A DNA stretch of 47,578 bases. It comes from Dictyobacter arantiisoli. GTDB taxonomy: Bacteria > Chloroflexota > Ktedonobacteria > Ktedonobacterales > Ktedonobacteraceae. Position numbers and translations under genes: made by a program. Each line of letters opens with the position of its first letter. Within the stretch, counting starts at the first letter, position 1. Under the pieces are notes generated by a model. That model was given only the letters and a program-made list of their open reading frames with translations. It had not been told where the DNA came from and ran no database searches. Of this stretch, positions 1,916 through 13,806 are shown one piece after another. The stretch lies in NCBI RefSeq assembly GCF_008326305.1, contig NZ_BIXY01000056.1:1-47578 (forward strand), read 5' to 3'.

Positions 1916-2941
1916 ATGGCGACAAAAGTGGAAGATGTCCATATTATCTGGATTGTAGAGGGATTGGGATGTGAAGGGGATACGATCGCAGTTACTGCCG
2001 CGACCCAACCCAGCATCGAGGATGTTGTGTTGGGAGCCATTCCAGGGCTCCCCCGAGTTCATATCCACAATAAATGCATCGCTTATGAGTGGGGAAAAGA
2101 CTTTATGGATTGGTGGTATAAAGCGGAACGAGGCGAGCTCGATCCCTTTGTGCTTGTGTTTGAAGGCTCTGTGCCAAACGAGAAGATTAAATCCGAAGGC
2201 TACTGGGCAGCACTTGGCGTGGATGCTACTACCGGTCAGCCCATTCCTGTAAGTGATTGGATTGATCGTCTCGCCCCTAAAGCTTTGGCCGTAGTGGCAA
2301 TAGGAACCTGCGCCACCTATGGTGGCATCCATGCTATGCAAGGGAATCCGACCGGAGCCATGGGTGTCGCGGATTATCTCGGCTGGGACTGGAAATCCAG
2401 GGCTGGCATCCCCATTGTCAATGTTCCAGGCTGCCCCGTGCAACCTGATAACTTTATGGAAACCCTCCTCTATCTACTCTACCAGGTAGCTGGCATGGCC
2501 CCGATGATTCCTCTAGATGAGGAAGGGCGACCTACCTGGCTCTTCGGCAAAACAGTCCATGAAGGATGCGACCGCGGTAGCTACTATGAGCAGGGTATGT
2601 TCGCCTCCGAGTACGGCTCACCACAATGTCTGGTAAAACTGGGCTGCTGGGGGCCAGTAGTGAACTGCAATGTTCCTAAGCGCGGTTGGATGGCTGGCAT
2701 TGGTGGCTGCCCTAATGTGGGCGGCATCTGTATCGGCTGTACAATGCCAGGCTTCCCCGACAAATTTATGCCTTTTATGGATGAACCACCTGGCGCGAAA
2801 CTTTCGACGTCCGTTGTAAGCATCTGGGGTGGTGCCTTACGCGGCCTACGCAAAATAACAAATGATACGGTCAATAAGGAACCATCCTGGCGGCACAAAG
2901 GCAGGCAACTGACGACGGGCTACCCGCCTCCATGGCAATGA
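1916..2941 (+). CDS. hhyS: Group 1h [NiFe]-hydrogenase small subunit
   Basis: A 341-residue Fe-S subunit that would carry electrons from the NiFe site in HhyL. There is no twin-arginine signal, so a cytoplasmic-side enzyme is expected, as in other group 1h enzymes. The proximal-cluster region reads GLGCEGD: Cys19 is kept, but Asp22 sits where most [NiFe]-hydrogenases have the second Cys. Cys132 (GTCATYGG) and Cys173 (PGCPVQP) complete a 3Cys-1Asp ligand set, a hallmark known for the Ralstonia eutropha actinobacterial-type hydrogenase. The distal ligands look like His215, Cys218, Cys238 and Cys244. Cys251, Cys265, Cys272 and Cys275 could hold a medial [4Fe-4S] cluster (inference). The ribosome site AAGGAGGA fits the start; hhyL follows after 50 bp. 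Confidence 0.96.
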   Translation: MATKVEDVHIIWIVEGLGCEGDTIAVTAATQPSIEDVVLGAIPGLPRVHIHNKCIAYEWGKDFMDWWYKAERGELDPFVLVFEGSVPNEKIKSEGYWAALGVDATTGQPIPVSDWIDRLAPKALAVVAIGTCATYGGIHAMQGNPTGAMGVADYLGWDWKSRAGIPIVNVPGCPVQPDNFMETLLYLLYQVAGMAPMIPLDEEGRPTWLFGKTVHEGCDRGSYYEQGMFASEYGSPQCLVKLGCWGPVVNCNVPKRGWMAGIGGCPNVGGICIGCTMPGFPDKFMPFMDEPPGAKLSTSVVSIWGGALRGLRKITNDTVNKEPSWRHKGRQLTTGYPPPWQ

Positions 2942-2991: not shown

Positions 2992-4788
2992 ATGTCTACG
3001 CAAGCGAAACGGGAAGGGTCTCCTCAGCAGCCACCACAGCTTGTAGAGATGTCGTGGGATCCCATGACACGTATTGTGGGTAGTCTGGGTATCTATACCA
3101 AGATCGACTTCAAGAACCGGCGGATAGCAGAAGCGTATAGCACTTCTCACATCTTCCGTGGCTATAGCCTCTTTATGCAGGGCAAGGATCCGCGTGATGC
3201 CCACTTCATCACGAGTCGCATCTGCGGCATCTGCGGTGATAACCATGCCACTTGCTCCGTCTATACGCAGAACATGGCCTATGGGGTCAAGCCACCAGCC
3301 CTGGGTGAGTGGATCATCAATCTGGGTGAGGCAGCGGAGTACATGTTCGACCACAATATCTTCCAGGAGAATCTGGTCGGCGTCGATTTCTGTGAGCAGA
3401 TGGTCAAAGAGACAAATCCCCATGTGCTTGAGCTCGCCAATAAAACTGCTGCCCCACATGCAGCAGAACATGGTTATAAAACCATTGGGGACATTATGCG
3501 CTCGCTTAATCCCTTCACCGGCGAGTTCTACCGCGAAGCATTACATGTGAGCCGCTATACGCGTGAGGCATTCTGCTTGATGGAAGGACGCCATGTTCAT
3601 CCCTCGACCCTTTATCCAGGCGGAACAGGCACTACCGCAACCATTCAAATCTTCACGGACTACCTCGTTCGACTGATGAAGTACGTTGAATGGATGAAGA
3701 AGGTCGTGCCTATGCATGATGACCTGTTCGACTTCTGGTACGAGGCTCTACCGGGCTATGAAATGGTGGGTCAACGGCGGATACTCCTCGGTTGCTGGGG
3801 TTCCTGGCAAAATCCTGACGTATGCGACTACGATTATCGCACGATGGACAAGTGGGGACGGGCCATGTATGTCACGCCTGGTGTGATTGTGGATGGAGAG
3901 TTGGTGACGACCAGTCTGGTGGATATTAACCTCGGTATTCGTATTCTATTGGGTAGTTCCTATTATGAAGATTGGCAGAATGAAAGAACGTTTGTTGACC
4001 GCGACCCGCTTGGTAATCCTATCGATAAGCGCCATCCCTGGAATCAAACAACCATCCCTAAGCCGCAAAAACGCGACTTCAGCGACAAATATAGCTGGAC
4101 GATGTCGCCGCGCTGGTATGATAAGCGTGCCGGTGATTATCTGGCCCTGGATACTGGCGGAGGTCCCATTGCCCGCCTGTGGTCAACAGCACTGGCCGGA
4201 CTGGTGAATATGGGAGGACTGATCGAAGCAACCGGACACAGTGTCAAAATTCGTCTGCCCAAGAGTGTCAGCAAACCCGAAGTAGAATTCGAGTGGAAGA
4301 TCCCAAAGTGGAGCAACGCAATCGAGCGTAACCGGGCACGCACATACTTCCAGGCTTACTCTGCCGCTGCTGCTCTCCACTTTATCGATAAAGCGCTTGC
4401 CGAACTCCATGCCGGTCACACCAAAACATGGAGCGATTTTACGGTACCAAAGGAGGCTATCGGCTGCGGCTTCCATGAGGCTGTCCGTGGCGTACTTTCC
4501 CATCACATGGTGATTGAGAATGGTAAGATCGCCAACTACCATCCCTATCCGCCAACACCCTGGAACGGCAGCGTGCGCGATATCTATGGTACTCCCGGCC
4601 CCTACGAGGACGCAGTACAGAACACCCCAATCTTTGAAGAAAATGGCCCGGAAGCCTTCAAAGGGATAGATATCATGCGAGCGGTTCGCAGCTTCGACCC
4701 TTGTTTACCATGTGGCGTCCATATGTACCTGGGCGAAGGCAAAGAACTTCAAACAGTTCTTTCACCAACCTTTGGCATCAACTCGTAG
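2992..4788 (+). CDS. hhyL: Group 1h [NiFe]-hydrogenase large (catalytic) subunit
   Basis: A 598-residue catalytic subunit that splits H2 at a NiFe(CN)2CO centre. The two metal-binding motifs are intact: N-terminal RICGICGDNH (Cys78, Cys81, His85) and C-terminal DPCLPCGVH (Cys571, Cys574, His577). The 21 residues after His577 form the peptide that the maturation protease removes once nickel is inserted; the matching protease gene is at 8610. Length and motif spacing fit the family. The ribosome site GAAGGAG stands 11 bases before the ATG. With HhyS it forms the heterodimer expected of a high-affinity, oxygen-tolerant group 1h enzyme; affinity is inferred from the family. Confidence 0.96.
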   Translation: MSTQAKREGSPQQPPQLVEMSWDPMTRIVGSLGIYTKIDFKNRRIAEAYSTSHIFRGYSLFMQGKDPRDAHFITSRICGICGDNHATCSVYTQNMAYGVKPPALGEWIINLGEAAEYMFDHNIFQENLVGVDFCEQMVKETNPHVLELANKTAAPHAAEHGYKTIGDIMRSLNPFTGEFYREALHVSRYTREAFCLMEGRHVHPSTLYPGGTGTTATIQIFTDYLVRLMKYVEWMKKVVPMHDDLFDFWYEALPGYEMVGQRRILLGCWGSWQNPDVCDYDYRTMDKWGRAMYVTPGVIVDGELVTTSLVDINLGIRILLGSSYYEDWQNERTFVDRDPLGNPIDKRHPWNQTTIPKPQKRDFSDKYSWTMSPRWYDKRAGDYLALDTGGGPIARLWSTALAGLVNMGGLIEATGHSVKIRLPKSVSKPEVEFEWKIPKWSNAIERNRARTYFQAYSAAAALHFIDKALAELHAGHTKTWSDFTVPKEAIGCGFHEAVRGVLSHHMVIENGKIANYHPYPPTPWNGSVRDIYGTPGPYEDAVQNTPIFEENGPEAFKGIDIMRAVRSFDPCLPCGVHMYLGEGKELQTVLSPTFGINS

Positions 4789-4836: not shown

Positions 4837-5085
4837 ATGAAAGCAGGATACATGATGGAAGAACAGAAGGCAACCCCGACACCCAATCCTGAGCATATAG
4901 CAGGCACAGGTAAGGGCGAGGAAAAAATCAAAGCCGAGGGCAGAGAACCTGGTCGTCAGGATACCGGGACGACAGGAAAGGCAAAACGCCCAACTGGCAA
5001 GACAACAGGTCGGGCATCTACCGGTGTCAATGCAGCAAAAGAAAATCCAGTAGATCCCGAAAGTCCACATATACCAGCACCCTGA
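4837..5085 (+). CDS. Small hydrophilic, disordered-looking protein in the hydrogenase operon
   Basis: An 82-residue Lys/Glu/Thr/Pro/Gly-rich protein with no hydrophobic core, no Cys and no recognised domain; it looks intrinsically disordered. ATGs at 4837, 4852 and 4855 are possible. An AGCAGGA sits just before the later two, while AAGGAGA (about 4804) is too far from the first. It lies between hhyL (48 bp upstream) and the NifU-domain gene, on the same strand. Whether it is a real gene or a chance frame is not settled. Confidence 0.45.
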   Translation: MKAGYMMEEQKATPTPNPEHIAGTGKGEEKIKAEGREPGRQDTGTTGKAKRPTGKTTGRASTGVNAAKENPVDPESPHIPAP

Positions 5086-5196
5086 TGTTCGTACAAAAGG
5101 ATGAAAACAGGTATAGAATCCGATTTACGTTGATTATTAATGCAAGTACCCCGCCCCTCTAGCTTCGGATCAGGAGGGGTACAAGGAGGAAGAGGA

Positions 5197-5766
5197 ATGC
5201 AACAAGGCATACAAGAGCAACAGCGCCAGGCAACGCGGATTGAGACGCTCGTCCAGGAAGTTGCCTCGTTCCAGGATCCCCATGCGCGTGCAATCGCTGA
5301 GGAACTCATTCAGGCGTTGCTGGATATGTATGGCGAAGGGCTAGCTCGCTTGCTTGAAATCACTGCCGAGGCTGACACAACGGGGCTTGCATTAATCAAC
5401 ATCTTCGCGCGTGATGAACTGCTCAGTTCATTGTTTGTGCTCCATGGACTCCATCCGCTAGATATCGAGGCACGAGTCCTGCAAGCACTGGAACAGATAC
5501 GGCCAACGCTCAAGTCGCAAGGGGGCACTGTAGATTTTGTGAGGATTGAAGATGGCATAGTCTATCTGCGCCTCCAGGAAAAGGGCAGTTGCCATAGTTG
5601 TTCAGGCTCGTCCAGCGCCCTCAAATTGGCGCTTGAAGAGGCAATCTACCAGGCGGTTCCAGATCTGGATGGATTGGAGATAGAAGACAATAGTGGTCCG
5701 CCGCGTGCTGCTATCCCTATGACGTTTGTGCCTCCACGTCGGCACAAAACGCGTATATCTAAATGA
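5197..5766 (+). CDS. NifU C-terminal-domain protein
   Basis: A 189-residue protein whose C-terminal half (about 95-165) is a NifU-like Fe-S scaffold domain: LEQIRPTLKSQGGTVDFVRI followed by the cluster-binding CHSC (Cys132, Cys135). The N-terminal half is helical and specific to hydrogenase-cluster versions. NifU domains assemble or hand over Fe-S clusters, and this one probably serves the cluster-rich HhyS. An in-frame ATG at 5140 lacks a ribosome site; the ATG at 5197 has AAGGAGGAAGAGG directly before it and is preferred. The stop overlaps an upstream in-frame ATG (ATGA) of the next gene, showing tight coupling. Confidence 0.88.
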   Translation: MQQGIQEQQRQATRIETLVQEVASFQDPHARAIAEELIQALLDMYGEGLARLLEITAEADTTGLALINIFARDELLSSLFVLHGLHPLDIEARVLQALEQIRPTLKSQGGTVDFVRIEDGIVYLRLQEKGSCHSCSGSSSALKLALEEAIYQAVPDLDGLEIEDNSGPPRAAIPMTFVPPRRHKTRISK

Positions 5767-5777
5767 GGTGTATCACA

Positions 5778-6533
5778 ATGTCATCATCCAAACCTACCAG
5801 CAATGTTGATGATCGTTTCGCAATTCCTCTTGATATGCTACGTCAGTTTGCACACCAACGAGAAATACGTCCGCCTGCAGAGCTATGCGAGCTATGCAGC
5901 GTGGAGATTCCTGCGAAACACCGCCATTTGTTGGAACTCTCCAAACGCACATTGATTTGCGTCTGTCATCCTTGCTCTATTCTCTTTGGTGATCCTGTTG
6001 CCGGAGCGGGGAAGTATCGGCTTGTCCCCTCCCGCTATCTCCTGTTGTCTGATTTCTCTATGACGGATGAACAGTGGGATGACCTGATGCTTCCGGTGAA
6101 CATGGTCTCTATCTTTTACAATACTAATACCAGGCGTGTCACAGCCTTCTATCCCAGTCCCGCAGGAGCTATGGAATCCCTGCTCCCTCTGGAAGGGTGG
6201 GATACTCTGGTCAACAACAATCCCATCCTGCATGAGTTGGAATCTGATGTCGAGGCACTACTGATTAACCGCGTGCAGAACAGGGGCGGTCATAGCTATC
6301 GAGAACATTACATCGTTCCCATAGACACTTGCTACGAGCTTGTCGGCTTAATCCGCCTCAAGTGGAAAGGTCTGAGCGGCGGTGAAGAAGTCTGGAAAGC
6401 TATTGCAGAGTACTTTACAGCCCTGCGATTAAGAGCAACTCCTATCGAACAATCCACTGACGTTAGTAGAACAGGGAAGCAAAGTGATGTCAATCCGGCT
6501 CATAACCCCTATGCCGGGGAGAGGAGGGCCTGA
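5778..6533 (+). CDS. DUF5947 family protein
   Basis: About 251 residues. The pattern LCELCSVEIPAKHRHLLEL, then CVCHPCSILF, then FYPSPAGAMES, is the signature I associate with DUF5947, a family found next to group 1h hydrogenases in Actinobacteria and Chloroflexota. The two CxxC pairs (CELC and CHPC) with HRH between them look like a metal site, probably zinc or Fe-S. No function has been shown; a role as assembly factor or electron-transfer partner is inferred from position only. An ATG at 5763 is also in frame, but the one at 5778 has GAGGTG at proper spacing. The stop overlaps the next start (TGATG). Confidence 0.85.
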   Translation: MSSSKPTSNVDDRFAIPLDMLRQFAHQREIRPPAELCELCSVEIPAKHRHLLELSKRTLICVCHPCSILFGDPVAGAGKYRLVPSRYLLLSDFSMTDEQWDDLMLPVNMVSIFYNTNTRRVTAFYPSPAGAMESLLPLEGWDTLVNNNPILHELESDVEALLINRVQNRGGHSYREHYIVPIDTCYELVGLIRLKWKGLSGGEEVWKAIAEYFTALRLRATPIEQSTDVSRTGKQSDVNPAHNPYAGERRA

Positions 6534-7183
6534 TGCCAGACCTGAGCTTTGAGGTATTGGGTGCCGAAGCTGTGCCCTACAGTACGCTTCCAATGCTCAA
6601 CTTCAAACTGCGGATTGGCAACGCAAACCCGGAAGAGCTGATCCAAAATATCAATTTGAAGTGCCAGATTATGCTCTCAGTGACACAAAGACGTTATGCA
6701 CCCGAAGAAAAGGCCAAACTGTTTGAGCTTTTTGGTGAGCCTGAACGCTGGGGTAAAACTTTGCGTACGTTCCTGTGGACGCACGTGCCTACCGTGGTGC
6801 CACGCTTCTCAGGCAATACCACCGTCGATCTGCCTGTTCCATGTCTCTACGATTTTGAGGTAGTGAGTACCAGATACTTCAATGCACTGGAGGATGGTGA
6901 CGTACCGCTCACCTTCCTCTTCAGTGGCACTGTTTTCTACGCAGGCGCGGAAGATAATCTACAGATCAGTCAGATCTCCTGGTCCAAGGAAGCCACCTAT
7001 CGCCTCCCGGTTGCCGTTTGGAAAGAGGTAATCCACACACACTTTCCCAACACAGCCTGGATTCGCCTGCCAAAGGATGTTTTCGACGAATTGTATCAGT
7101 ATAAAATCGCGCATGGCCTCATCACCTGGGAGCAAGTTCTTACACGCCTGCTACAGGCAAGTGGAGAGGAAGTAAAGCCATGA
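6533..7183 (+). CDS. DUF6084 family protein
   Basis: A 216-residue protein with the opening MPDLSFEVLGAEAVPYSTLP and a later RFSGNTTVDLPVPCLYDFEV, which I recognise as DUF6084. Members sit beside DUF5947 in group 1h hydrogenase clusters. It appears soluble, beta-rich in the first two thirds, and lacks Cys motifs or a signal peptide. Its start overlaps the previous stop by one base, with GAGAGGAGG just upstream, and its own stop overlaps the next gene (ATGA), so expression is translationally coupled on both sides. Function unknown; a structural or assembly role for the hydrogenase is the reasonable inference. Confidence 0.85.
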   Translation: MPDLSFEVLGAEAVPYSTLPMLNFKLRIGNANPEELIQNINLKCQIMLSVTQRRYAPEEKAKLFELFGEPERWGKTLRTFLWTHVPTVVPRFSGNTTVDLPVPCLYDFEVVSTRYFNALEDGDVPLTFLFSGTVFYAGAEDNLQISQISWSKEATYRLPVAVWKEVIHTHFPNTAWIRLPKDVFDELYQYKIAHGLITWEQVLTRLLQASGEEVKP

Positions 7184-8223
7184 AGCTAGAGCAGGTAAAG
7201 GAAATCGCCAACGCGATCCTCTACGAGGGCTATCTCCTCTATCCATACCGCCAGTCCGCAATCAAAAATCGTACACGTTGGACGTTTGGCGGCATCTATC
7301 CACGCGAGTATAGCGAGGGGAATGGTGGCAGAGATCCCTGGACAATGCGCACAGAATGCCTGCTAGAAGGTCAGGCAGAGCATCTCTCACTCGATATAAC
7401 CATCAGGTTTCTGCACCTGCTTGTGCGTACAGTTGTGCCACCCGATGCGAGAAAAGATGAGCAAGTGGAAGAGCTTTCCGATACATGGGGACTGGCTAGC
7501 CGTTTTGCGGACGAACCATTACAGGAGGGGCGAGAGCGCGATTTGAGCATACTGGATCTTTCCTTGAAAGATGTGCTGTTTTCTCCTCGCTGTGTGGCAA
7601 TTGAATTTCCCGCCACATGTACCGTAGAATATCCACCCGATGCGCATGGAATAGAGATCATTCGAGAGCAACAAGCACTCTCTGGAGTCTGTACACTCTC
7701 AGCTGAACGCGTCGCTACGACCATCTTCAAGCTGAGTATCACCATCGAGAATACGACATCTGTGACCGGTGATGCCACAAACCGCCACGATGCCATACTA
7801 TTCCAATCTTTCATCTCTACACATACTATTCTACAGGTACATCGGGGTTCTTTCATCTCACTGTTAGAGCCTTTAAAAGAGCTACAACCGTTGGTCAGCG
7901 AATGTCATAATCTCCACACATGGCCGGTGCTGGTCGGTGAGCAGGGGGAACGAGATACACTGCTATCGTCACCCATTATCTTGTACGACTATCCACAGAT
8001 CGCTCCCGAAAGTCCGGGACCGCTCTTCGATGGCGGCGAGATTGATGAAATTCTCTCGTTGCGTATTCTGACACTGAGTGATGAGGAGAAAAAGCAAATG
8101 CGACAGGATGAACACACCCGCGAGATACTGGAGCGCACAGAGGCCCTCACGCCTGATCAATTCATGAAGATGCATGGTACCATTCGTGATCTACGTCCTA
8201 ACAGCAAAGGAGAAAAAGCATGA
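7180..8223 (+). CDS. Conserved hydrogenase-cluster protein of unknown function (347 aa)
   Basis: 347 residues, soluble, no signal or membrane segment. The N-terminus MKLEQVKEIANAILYEGYLL and the nearby PYRQSAIKNRTRWTFGG resemble proteins encoded in actinobacterial group 1h hydrogenase loci; I know of no assigned function. The C-terminal 60 residues are charged and helical (EEKKQMRQDEHTREILERTE). It begins by ATGA overlap with the DUF6084 gene. Its last 20 codons and stop are the first copy of a 61-bp tandem duplication (8163-8284), whose second copy now forms the spacer and ribosome site of the next gene. Confidence 0.82.
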   Translation: MKLEQVKEIANAILYEGYLLYPYRQSAIKNRTRWTFGGIYPREYSEGNGGRDPWTMRTECLLEGQAEHLSLDITIRFLHLLVRTVVPPDARKDEQVEELSDTWGLASRFADEPLQEGRERDLSILDLSLKDVLFSPRCVAIEFPATCTVEYPPDAHGIEIIREQQALSGVCTLSAERVATTIFKLSITIENTTSVTGDATNRHDAILFQSFISTHTILQVHRGSFISLLEPLKELQPLVSECHNLHTWPVLVGEQGERDTLLSSPIILYDYPQIAPESPGPLFDGGEIDEILSLRILTLSDEEKKQMRQDEHTREILERTEALTPDQFMKMHGTIRDLRPNSKGEKA

Positions 8224-8284
8224 CATGAAGATGCATGGTACCATTCGTGATCTACGTCCTGACAGCAAAGGAGAAAAAGCATGA
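8163..8284 (+). repeat. 61-bp tandem duplication at a gene junction
   Basis: Bases 8163-8223 and 8224-8284 are identical except for one A/G difference (8200 versus 8261). Each unit ends in AAAGGAGAAAAAGCATGA. In unit 1 the TGA is the stop of the 347-residue gene; in unit 2 the ATG is the start of the next gene. One unit alone would give an ATGA stop/start overlap, so the duplication has pulled two formerly overlapping genes 57 bp apart while keeping both intact. Confidence 0.97.
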
Positions 8285-8613
8285 TACGTCGTGGAGGTTG
8301 GGATTTCCCAGGATTTCCAGGCGAGGATTATCCACCGCCAGCATCTATCACAATTGCAGGCAAAGAGGTGAGCGTGGGAACGCGTGTACGCCTCTGTCCA
8401 CAAAAGAGACGTGCCGACGCTTTTGATGGCATCCTTGCTGGAAAAATCGGGACTGTTGAGGTCATTCATCAGGATTTCGAGAATCGTGTCTATCTGGTTG
8501 TCACAGTGGACGATGACCCAGCCCTGGAACAAATGCAGATGCAGAGTCGTGTTATGCCTGGTCATCTTTTTTTCTTCTTTCCAGAGGAGGTAGAACTGCT
8601 GGAGGGCTCGTGA
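8281..8613 (+). CDS. Small conserved hydrogenase-cluster protein (110 aa)
   Basis: 110 residues with a Pro-rich N-terminus (WDFPGFPGEDYPPP), then VGTRVRLCPQKRRADAFDGI, GKIGTVEVIHQDFENRVYL and VVTVDDDP, ending in FFFFPEEVELL. The central part reads like a small SH3-type beta barrel. I recall a similar segment in actinobacterial group 1h clusters, sometimes within a longer protein. No function is established. The ribosome site AAAGGAG comes from the second copy of the 61-bp duplication, and the stop overlaps the GTG of the protease gene (GTGA). A role in handling the large subunit before cleavage is only a guess. Confidence 0.75.
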   Translation: MIRRGGWDFPGFPGEDYPPPASITIAGKEVSVGTRVRLCPQKRRADAFDGILAGKIGTVEVIHQDFENRVYLVVTVDDDPALEQMQMQSRVMPGHLFFFFPEEVELLEGS

Positions 8614-9149
8614 GCAGTACACCATTATCAGAGCAGCCACTCAGGCGCATACTTATAGCCTGTATTGGCAATATCTTTTTAGGAGATGATGGCTTCGGCG
8701 TTGAAGTGGCAAGCAGACTTATGAACAGACAATATCCAGAGGGCGTACAAGTCGTCGATTTCGGTATTCGGGGCATGGATCTGGCCTATAGCTTGCTCGA
8801 TGAGTACGATGCTCTTGTGCTGGTTGACACGGTTGCTCGCGGTGGTCAACCCGGCACGCTCTATCTGATAGAACCGGATTTGACAGAGATGACTCCTGAG
8901 AAAGGAGGAGAAGCTGGCAGAATGGCACTGGATACGCATAGCATGGACCCGGTGAAGGTTCTGGCCTATGCCCGCACGCTGGGGGCGCAACCCATTCATA
9001 CATTGCTGATTGGCTGCGAACCTGCCTCGCTCGGCAGTGATGATCCCTGCACAGAGATGCAGATGGAATTGAGCGAACCAGTGCAAGCCGCTGTGGATGA
9101 AGCGCTAAAGATGATTGACTCCGTAGTGAAAAAGCTAGTTTTCTTGTAA
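8610..9149 (+). CDS. Hydrogenase maturation protease (peptidase M52)
   Basis: A 179-residue HupD/HyaD/HybD-type endopeptidase. It would cut the C-terminal peptide from HhyL after His577 once nickel is in place, which lets the subunit close. Seen in the sequence: CIGNIFLGDDGFG (GNxxxxDDGxG with Asp26), VDFGIRGMDL (Asp57) and DTHSMDP (His110). These match the three nickel-sensing ligands of HybD (Glu16, Asp62, His93) in order, with Asp replacing Glu at the first. The start is a GTG overlapping the previous stop, with GGAGG five bases before it. Confidence 0.92.
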   Translation: MSSTPLSEQPLRRILIACIGNIFLGDDGFGVEVASRLMNRQYPEGVQVVDFGIRGMDLAYSLLDEYDALVLVDTVARGGQPGTLYLIEPDLTEMTPEKGGEAGRMALDTHSMDPVKVLAYARTLGAQPIHTLLIGCEPASLGSDDPCTEMQMELSEPVQAAVDEALKMIDSVVKKLVFL

Positions 9150-9173: not shown

Positions 9174-9275
9174 ATGTTCAGACTCCTTCTCGTCGTTCTG
9201 GCCCTGGCTATCGGGTATTTCGTCCTTCAATCGATTCCCGATATCCGACGCTATCTTCGTATACGGGCGATGTAA
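9174..9275 (+). CDS. DUF6893-type single-span membrane peptide (33 aa)
   Basis: A 33-residue reading frame: a hydrophobic helix (MFRLLLVVLALAIGYFVL) followed by a basic, amphipathic tail containing SIPDIRRYLRIRAM. This hydrophobic-then-PDIRRYLRIR layout is what I know as DUF6893, tiny proteins encoded in group 1h hydrogenase clusters. AAAGGAA precedes the ATG and the gene fits neatly between the protease and hypA on the same strand. It could anchor or position the hydrogenase at the membrane, but this is inference from the single span and the location. Confidence 0.75.
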   Translation: MFRLLLVVLALAIGYFVLQSIPDIRRYLRIRAM

Positions 9276-13182: not shown

Positions 13183-13806
13183 ATGACAACTGAAATGGAA
13201 AAGCGCGAACAATCTGACTTGCTAGCAGTAGTCACCGCGCGCTTTGCGCTGAGCGTGACGATACCAGACACATTTTTCAACGCGGAGGCCAAAAATATCG
13301 CCGAGGCATGCTGGGCTATGGCACGGCGCTTTCACCAGGGCGGACGGCTCCTGGCCTTCGGCAATGGAGCATGGGCCACCGATGCCCAGCATGTGGCGGT
13401 CGAATTTGTACATCCAGTAATTGTTGGCAAACGCGCGCTACCCGCCCTGGCTCTAACGAACGATAGTGCAACGATGAGCGGTTTGATGACTGGTGATGAT
13501 GCCACGAACTCCTTCGCCCGTCAACTGCGGATAGTAGCTCGACCGCAAGATATCGCACTGGGCTATTCGCCGGATGGACAGTGCAACAACGTGCGCTCAG
13601 CCCTGACTACAGCGCGAGAAATGGGCTTGCTCACATTGGGACTGGTCGGAGGAGATGGAGGAAGCATACAACAGAGCCAGCTTGATTTCTGTTTCGTCGT
13701 CCCATCTTGCGATCCGTTGGCGATACAGGAAACGCACGAGACCCTCTATCATGTTCTCTGGGAACTGGTACATATCTACTTTGAGAATGAAGGGCTACTC
13801 CAATGA
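13183..13806 (+). CDS. SIS-domain protein 1 (GmhA-like, altered sugar-phosphate site)
   Basis: A 207-residue sugar-isomerase (SIS) domain protein of the GmhA/phosphoheptose isomerase type. The fold is recognisable from LLAFGNGAWATDAQHVAVEF (59-67 core), ALPALALTND and IQETHETLYHVLWE. However, the usual phosphate-binding FGNGGSSTD is FGNGAWATD here, and the second loop, normally ISTSGNS, reads GYSPDGQCN. Both loops that grip the sugar phosphate have therefore changed. It sits inside the hyp operon and overlaps the HypC-like gene by ATGA. It may pair with SIS protein 2 as a non-catalytic or differently specific partner; this is inference. Confidence 0.85.
   Translation: MTTEMEKREQSDLLAVVTARFALSVTIPDTFFNAEAKNIAEACWAMARRFHQGGRLLAFGNGAWATDAQHVAVEFVHPVIVGKRALPALALTNDSATMSGLMTGDDATNSFARQLRIVARPQDIALGYSPDGQCNNVRSALTTAREMGLLTLGLVGGDGGSIQQSQLDFCFVVPSCDPLAIQETHETLYHVLWELVHIYFENEGLLQ

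Follow-up and report, generated by a model that had tools for sequence, protein, structure and literature searches.

The locus described here has close counterparts among known group 1h (Hhy) [NiFe]-hydrogenase operons, which encode the enzyme by which soil bacteria oxidise the traces of hydrogen in air. On the megaplasmid pHG1 of Cupriavidus necator, the AH operon runs hofK, hofG, PHG066 (NifU), PHG067 (DUF5947), PHG068 (DUF6084), PHG069 and PHG070 (protease), the PHG numbers being given to the genes by order, after PMC4377017, which describes PHG066-PHG069 as four open reading frames (ORFs) of unknown function. PHG067, with its homologue MSMEG_2717, was earlier proposed as an electron acceptor, a proposal taken here as cited in PMC6883350. 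In Mycobacterium smegmatis, deletion of HhyE abolishes Hhy activity even with an artificial acceptor, a requirement known only in that organism (PMC6883350). Here we analyse the matching genes in a 47,578-nucleotide stretch of Dictyobacter arantiisoli (NZ_BIXY01000056.1, hereafter the window), one contig of the 7.2 Mb assembly of a Ktedonobacteria-type Chloroflexota. The genes form a dedicated accessory set of the group 1h hydrogenase, an identity and a hydrogenase specificity that we regard as practically certain, and comprise three families instead of four, plus an HhyE-like protein and a DUF6893 microprotein that had been overlooked. The block as such is not new, since the same gene order on pHG1 was already described.

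The forward strand of the window shows, in a row, hhyS, hhyL, a NifU-domain ORF, DUF5947, DUF6084, ORFs of 347 and 110 amino acids, a protease gene and an ORF of 33 amino acids. The small subunit gene hhyS (1916..2941) matches the Pfam families NiFe_hyd_SSU_C and Oxidored_q6 and its product is 72% identical to C. necator HofK, while the product of hhyL (2992..4788), the large subunit, is 78% identical to C. necator HofG and matches it (PDB 5aa5_C, entry 5AA5) with 1125 bits in a phmmer search, which identifies the enzyme as a group 1h hydrogenase. Between hhyL and the maturation protease (8610..9149; PF01750, and TIGR00072 above its cut-off) follow, in the order that defines the block, the NifU-type, DUF5947, DUF6084 and PHG069-type genes, with PHG067-type DUF5947 at 5778..6533 (PF19372, E 1e-67, 227 bits against a curated cut-off of 25) and PHG068-type DUF6084 at 6533..7183 (PF19562, E 4e-89, 298 bits, same cut-off). 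A sequence-only reading of this DNA had proposed DUF5947, DUF6084 and the 347- and 110-amino-acid ORFs as four hydrogenase-specific factors encoded between structural genes and protease; the ORFs are real, as synteny in several phyla attests, and they do lie between hhySL and the protease, although the gene directly before DUF5947 is the NifU-domain gene and not hhyL.

Specificity for the hydrogenase is borne out by co-occurrence. Among 201 Chloroflexota genomes, the same 17 have DUF6084 and a DUF5947 match over cut-off, and 18 have HhyL at an identity of at least 72%; among 198 Actinomycetota genomes, DUF5947 occurs in 23, PHG069-type proteins in exactly those 23 and HhyL at an identity of at least 66% in 24, with 22 genomes common to DUF5947 and HhyL. 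Taken together, DUF5947 and HhyL are both present in 39 of the 399 genomes and both missing from 356, three have HhyL only and one has DUF5947 only (Fisher p about 2e-49, which is only indicative because the genomes are related). The frequent occurrence outside group 1h that the sequence-only reading named as its own refutation was looked for and not found: DUF5947 stands without HhyL in this one genome only, in which the contig end falls inside DUF5947. For the 349 Pseudomonadota genomes, DUF5947 appears only in the 1h-bearing centre, and it is absent wherever the sole hydrogenase match of a genome has 36-46% likeness to HhyL. Among 80 named loci, collected from genome contigs with HhyL as query, those on a long enough contig have the whole block, with a few rearrangements; its synteny spans several phyla, far beyond chance.

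The reduction to three families concerns the 347- and 110-amino-acid ORFs (7180..8223 and 8281..8613), which have no Pfam or NCBIfam match. Both are contained, in order and in one frame, in C. necator PHG069 (476 amino acids), which the 347 part matches at L019 8645-9703. The fused form is also that of M. intracellulare, Streptomyces, Methylocystis, Paraburkholderia, most actinobacterial and proteobacterial loci and some Chloroflexota, a few calls being possibly wrong because a shared open frame served as the criterion of fusion. The split form is found in most Ktedonobacteria and Acidobacteria, typically with an ATGA overlap of the two parts. In the window the parts are 57 nucleotides (nt) apart, a gap that stems from a 61-bp tandem duplication (about 8163..8284, two copies differing at one base) containing the 347 gene's 3' end, a Shine-Dalgarno-like AAAGGAG and the ATGA. 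Of the stop/start overlaps noted earlier for the whole series, those of DUF5947 with DUF6084 (TGATG), of DUF6084 with the 347 ORF (ATGA) and of the 110 ORF with the protease (GTGA) are present, whereas the one between 347 and 110 is replaced by this gap. Judged by these alignments, the two ORFs are parts of one PHG069-type protein, and the count of four genes falls. That they are independent genes, so that the window would hold four separate factors, agrees with the split form prevailing in Ktedonobacteria and Acidobacteria, but given the single ORF of so many other lineages, the ATGA overlap of most split copies and the origin of the window gap by duplication we consider it highly improbable. 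As a side observation, the duplication uncouples an ATGA overlap that the relatives have. On another contig (G190, L158 8711-10718), the C-terminal half of a PHG069-type gene, the protease and hyp genes stand beside an integrase-like ORF, and the hydrogenase genes are not there.

A model of the fused PHG069-type protein from locus L044 (predicted local distance difference test, pLDDT, 83) predicts for the C-terminal part, to which the 110 ORF corresponds, an SH3-like barrel near PetP of cytochrome b6f (template-modelling score, TM, 0.77 by target; Z about 8) and also near PsaE, KOW and nitrile hydratase beta domains; SH3 barrels being common, the likeness shows no function. Two further structural matches were set aside: that of the N-terminal part to DrmA (Z 9.6, root-mean-square deviation 4.7 over 197 residues, one row above the rest) is not interpretable, and Foldseek matches of the model to herpesvirus gB have very low TM-scores.

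The gene before DUF5947 (5140..5766) encodes a NifU-domain protein (PF01106, E 5e-15) downstream of hhyL. It keeps the NifU CxxC as a CHSC motif and ends at 208 amino acids without the C-terminal Rieske-fold domain and its two CxxC motifs, for which reason we label it HhyE-like, truncated; truncated forms of HhyE have been described (PMC6883350). Its nearest relative, L028, has 334 amino acids and a Rieske match, and the C-terminal domain is present in L028, L023 and L020. DUF5947 starts 11 nt after the end of this gene, at 5778; an alternative ATG at 5763 is unsupported, as a stop stands there in the frame of L028, the closest relative. The sequence-only reading had regarded the locus as otherwise devoid of an electron-transfer candidate, which does not hold with a truncated HhyE relative adjoining DUF5947 and a membrane microprotein following the protease. 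A regular expression finds the NifU CxxC in 46 of 98 HhyE homologues and the two-motif tail in 23, hence HhyE is not a CxxC cluster carrier everywhere. DUF5947 was also considered as a detached C-terminal half of HhyE, a reading that was ruled out, since Mycobacterium, L023 and L028 have a full-length HhyE together with a separate DUF5947.

DUF5947 was credited with two CxxC pairs, which are in fact a CxxC and a CxCxxC. They belong to a C2-H2-C3 site, C37, C40, H48, H50, C61, C63 and C66, that is invariant in all 95 sequences from several phyla, C185 being kept in 92. With the NifU cysteines of HhyE lost in C. necator and in roughly half of the rest, no cysteine-rich operon protein other than HhySL is as well conserved as DUF5947. 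An AlphaFold2 model (mean pLDDT 87) includes C37xxC40 and C63xxC66, the latter at helix 64-71, and its residues 32-84 align weakly with Zn modules (Z 2-3.5), among them L24e (Z 3.5), B-box (Z 3.2) and KDM6; on this ground a structural Zn site with further ligands is no less likely than a redox centre. The proposed metal binding is supported to the extent of an invariant Cys/His site only. The C-terminal part of the model aligns with GAF domains at a Z of only about 3 or less. Pfam and NCBIfam give no Fe-S or rubredoxin family match for DUF5947, Foldseek with the model finds no match at E<=0.001, and sequence profiles of DUF5947, DUF6084 and the 347 and 110 parts find nothing significant in the PDB.

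These data bear directly on whether DUF5947 is itself the electron acceptor, its site binding Fe-S or mononuclear Fe and taking electrons from the distal HhyS cluster. The invariant ligands and the frequent loss of the HhyE cysteines favour it; the idea, which the sequence-only reading had raised for a family of unknown function, is not original, having been published for PHG067 according to the citation in PMC6883350. The weak matches of the predicted N-terminal domain to Zn treble clefs and the lack of a redox family match count against it, as does strain SolV, which oxidises sub-atmospheric H2 (PMC7174314) with an hhy region without DUF5947. We consider a direct acceptor unlikely. Another possibility is that all block proteins are assembly factors, none of which stays in the final enzyme, HhyE and DUF5947 building or protecting the HhyS clusters in air and DUF6084 and PHG069 helping HhyL. 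The NifU-like nature of HhyE, the Zn-finger-like look of the DUF5947 model and the position of the block next to the protease would fit, as would the loss of zymogram activity with an artificial acceptor in the absence of HhyE (PMC6883350), which suits a missing enzyme rather than a missing acceptor. Nonetheless, HhyE co-localises with HhyL and HhyS on native gels, as far as the citation in PMC6883350 goes, and the cluster-carrying CxxC is absent in about half of the HhyE proteins; a purely assembly-related block is, in our opinion, also improbable.

Directly behind the protease, an ORF at 9174..9275 encodes a DUF6893 microprotein of 33 amino acids (PF21833, 48.9 bits, curated cut-off 24.6), with one predicted hydrophobic transmembrane helix and then PDIRRYLRIRAM-stop. 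A profile seeded from 16 copies, which has 0 matches in reversed sequence, detects DUF6893 at 84 group 1h loci from several phyla, where the gene is often not annotated. The C-terminal signature is PDI(K/R)RYLRIRxM; of the 84 copies, 82 have R at -8, 81 have Y at -7 and 81 have M at -1. It lies at most 1.5 kb downstream of the protease in 74 of the 94 cases with room for it; the remaining copies stand between the 110 part and the protease, or beside hhyS. The C. necator copy is missing from the gene table but is confirmed by the independent Pfam model (PF21833, 38.9 bits), and that of Methylacidiphilum, with 14.9 bits, is below the Pfam cut-off; in strain Kam1 the single match in 2.02 Mb is at hhyS, and plasmids give only two matches, each 2-3 kb downstream from the start of DUF6084. 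The family is not named in the literature searched. As Hyd-1h is membrane-associated without a helix of its own (PMC7174314), a membrane tether is the obvious guess, and DUF6893 could be one.

The block genes are inherited in partly separate sets. In Methylacidiphilum fumariolicum SolV and Methylacidiphilum kamchatkense Kam1 (Verrucomicrobia; L166 9759-11632, and L167), the genes for DUF6084 (in SolV PF19562, E 3.5e-59), the PHG069-type protein, which is fused, and the protease make up a unit of their own, on the opposite strand and facing hhySL. Kam1 has no DUF5947 or HhyE match even at E<=5 in 2.02 of 2.20 Mb, and the SolV hhy region has no DUF5947; the absence of HhyE from Methylacidiphilum is published (PMC6688271; PMC6883350). 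According to PMC7174314, SolV has no counterparts of the hypothetical proteins of the operon; for the divergent DUF6084 and PHG069-type families this statement seems to require correction. The group 1h operon of genome G145 (L149 7783-12286) is devoid of HhyE, DUF5947 and DUF6084; its hhyL is followed directly by a divergent PHG069-type ORF, and a DUF6390 gene lies upstream of hhyS. In G254, HhyE and DUF6084 are found with no DUF5947 match, the contig ending in DUF6084, and in Kibdelosporangium the PHG069-type gene and the protease are moved and inverted together. Loss of the block genes rather than late gain is favoured by the HhyL tree, in which Methylacidiphilum and G145 sit within a clade next to its sister L156/L161/L162, where the block is complete, but long branches are involved.

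From these patterns we infer two modules, a mechanism to which we give somewhat less than even chances. In the first, DUF6084 and the PHG069-type protein (347 and 110 parts), together with the protease, would have HhySL as their target, either ahead of large-subunit processing or while it takes place, as suggested by Methylacidiphilum, which keeps the three as a unit, and by Kibdelosporangium, which moves the PHG069-type gene with the protease. In the second, truncated HhyE and DUF5947 would bind matured HhySL and either pass on electrons or shape the complex for transfer, DUF5947 supplying the Cys/His metal site; DUF5947 is missing where HhyE is missing (Methylacidiphilum, G145), and its ligands are far more constant than the HhyE NifU motif (95/95 vs 46/98). 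DUF6893 may sit in the membrane with its basic C-terminus toward the cytoplasmic enzyme, tethering HhySL near the quinone pool. Several observations weigh against this arrangement. The gene set of G254 means that the redox pair HhyE/DUF5947 can be uncoupled, and G145, with HhyL and a PHG069-type protein but no DUF6084, that the first module is not a strict unit; in Kibdelosporangium, DUF6084 remains with HhyE-DUF5947 and not with the protease. The border between the modules is not sharp because of these exceptions, nor does translational coupling draw it, the DUF5947/DUF6084 overlap being as tight as that of DUF6084/PHG069. The simple version of the tether is weakened by C. necator, whose AH, purified from the cytoplasm by the account given in PMC7174314, comes with a DUF6893 peptide all the same.

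A wider version, which we put forward tentatively and regard as less likely than not, is that DUF6893 is nearly universal in group 1h, mostly unnoticed, and docks the soluble enzyme to the membrane through its tail, while DUF5947 and HhyE connect it, in a removable fashion, to the quinone pool and DUF6084/PHG069 assemble it. If true, it would explain how an enzyme without a membrane helix passes electrons from atmospheric H2 to the respiratory chain; the main sink of this gas is its uptake in soil by high-affinity hydrogenases. The unknowns of group 1h assembly and membrane wiring are narrowed to three soluble families and one membrane microprotein, with exact residues and genes named, and Methylacidiphilum, G145 and G254 offer a natural dissection.

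Elsewhere in the window, an ORF at 4837-5085, between hhyL and the HhyE-like gene, encodes 82 low-complexity, hydrophilic amino acids, its position is not conserved and it is probably not a gene. A SIS-domain (GmhA-like) gene at 13183-13806 stands in the hyp cluster flanked by two HypC-like ORFs, and C. necator pHG1 and Methylocystis parvus also have a SIS-domain gene in their hyp clusters. With the HhyL of G108, which belongs to another genus, the window HhyL shares 88% identity, against about 80% with the HhyL of G116, a member of the same genus, and the G116 HhyL groups with Dictyobacter aurantiacus; from these identities and groupings, exchange of hhy operons among Ktedonobacteria is probable.

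Compared with the described systems, the window shares its gene order with the C. necator AH operon, at identities of 42% for DUF5947, 50% for DUF6084, 40% for the 347 part and 46% for the 110 part, and differs in that C. necator has PHG069 as one ORF, PHG066 without the NifU CxxC, and no duplication. The Hhy operon of M. smegmatis likewise has, downstream of hhySL, a NifU-domain HhyE (MSMEG_2718) and then the DUF5947-type gene MSMEG_2717 (PMC6883350), an order also seen in the M. intracellulare plasmid; its HhyE has the C-terminal double-CxxC domain that the window protein is without. The Hyd-1h locus of Methylacidiphilum SolV and Kam1, where HhyE and DUF5947 were not found and the accessory genes face hhySL from the other strand, has in common with the window DUF6084, the PHG069-type protein and the protease.

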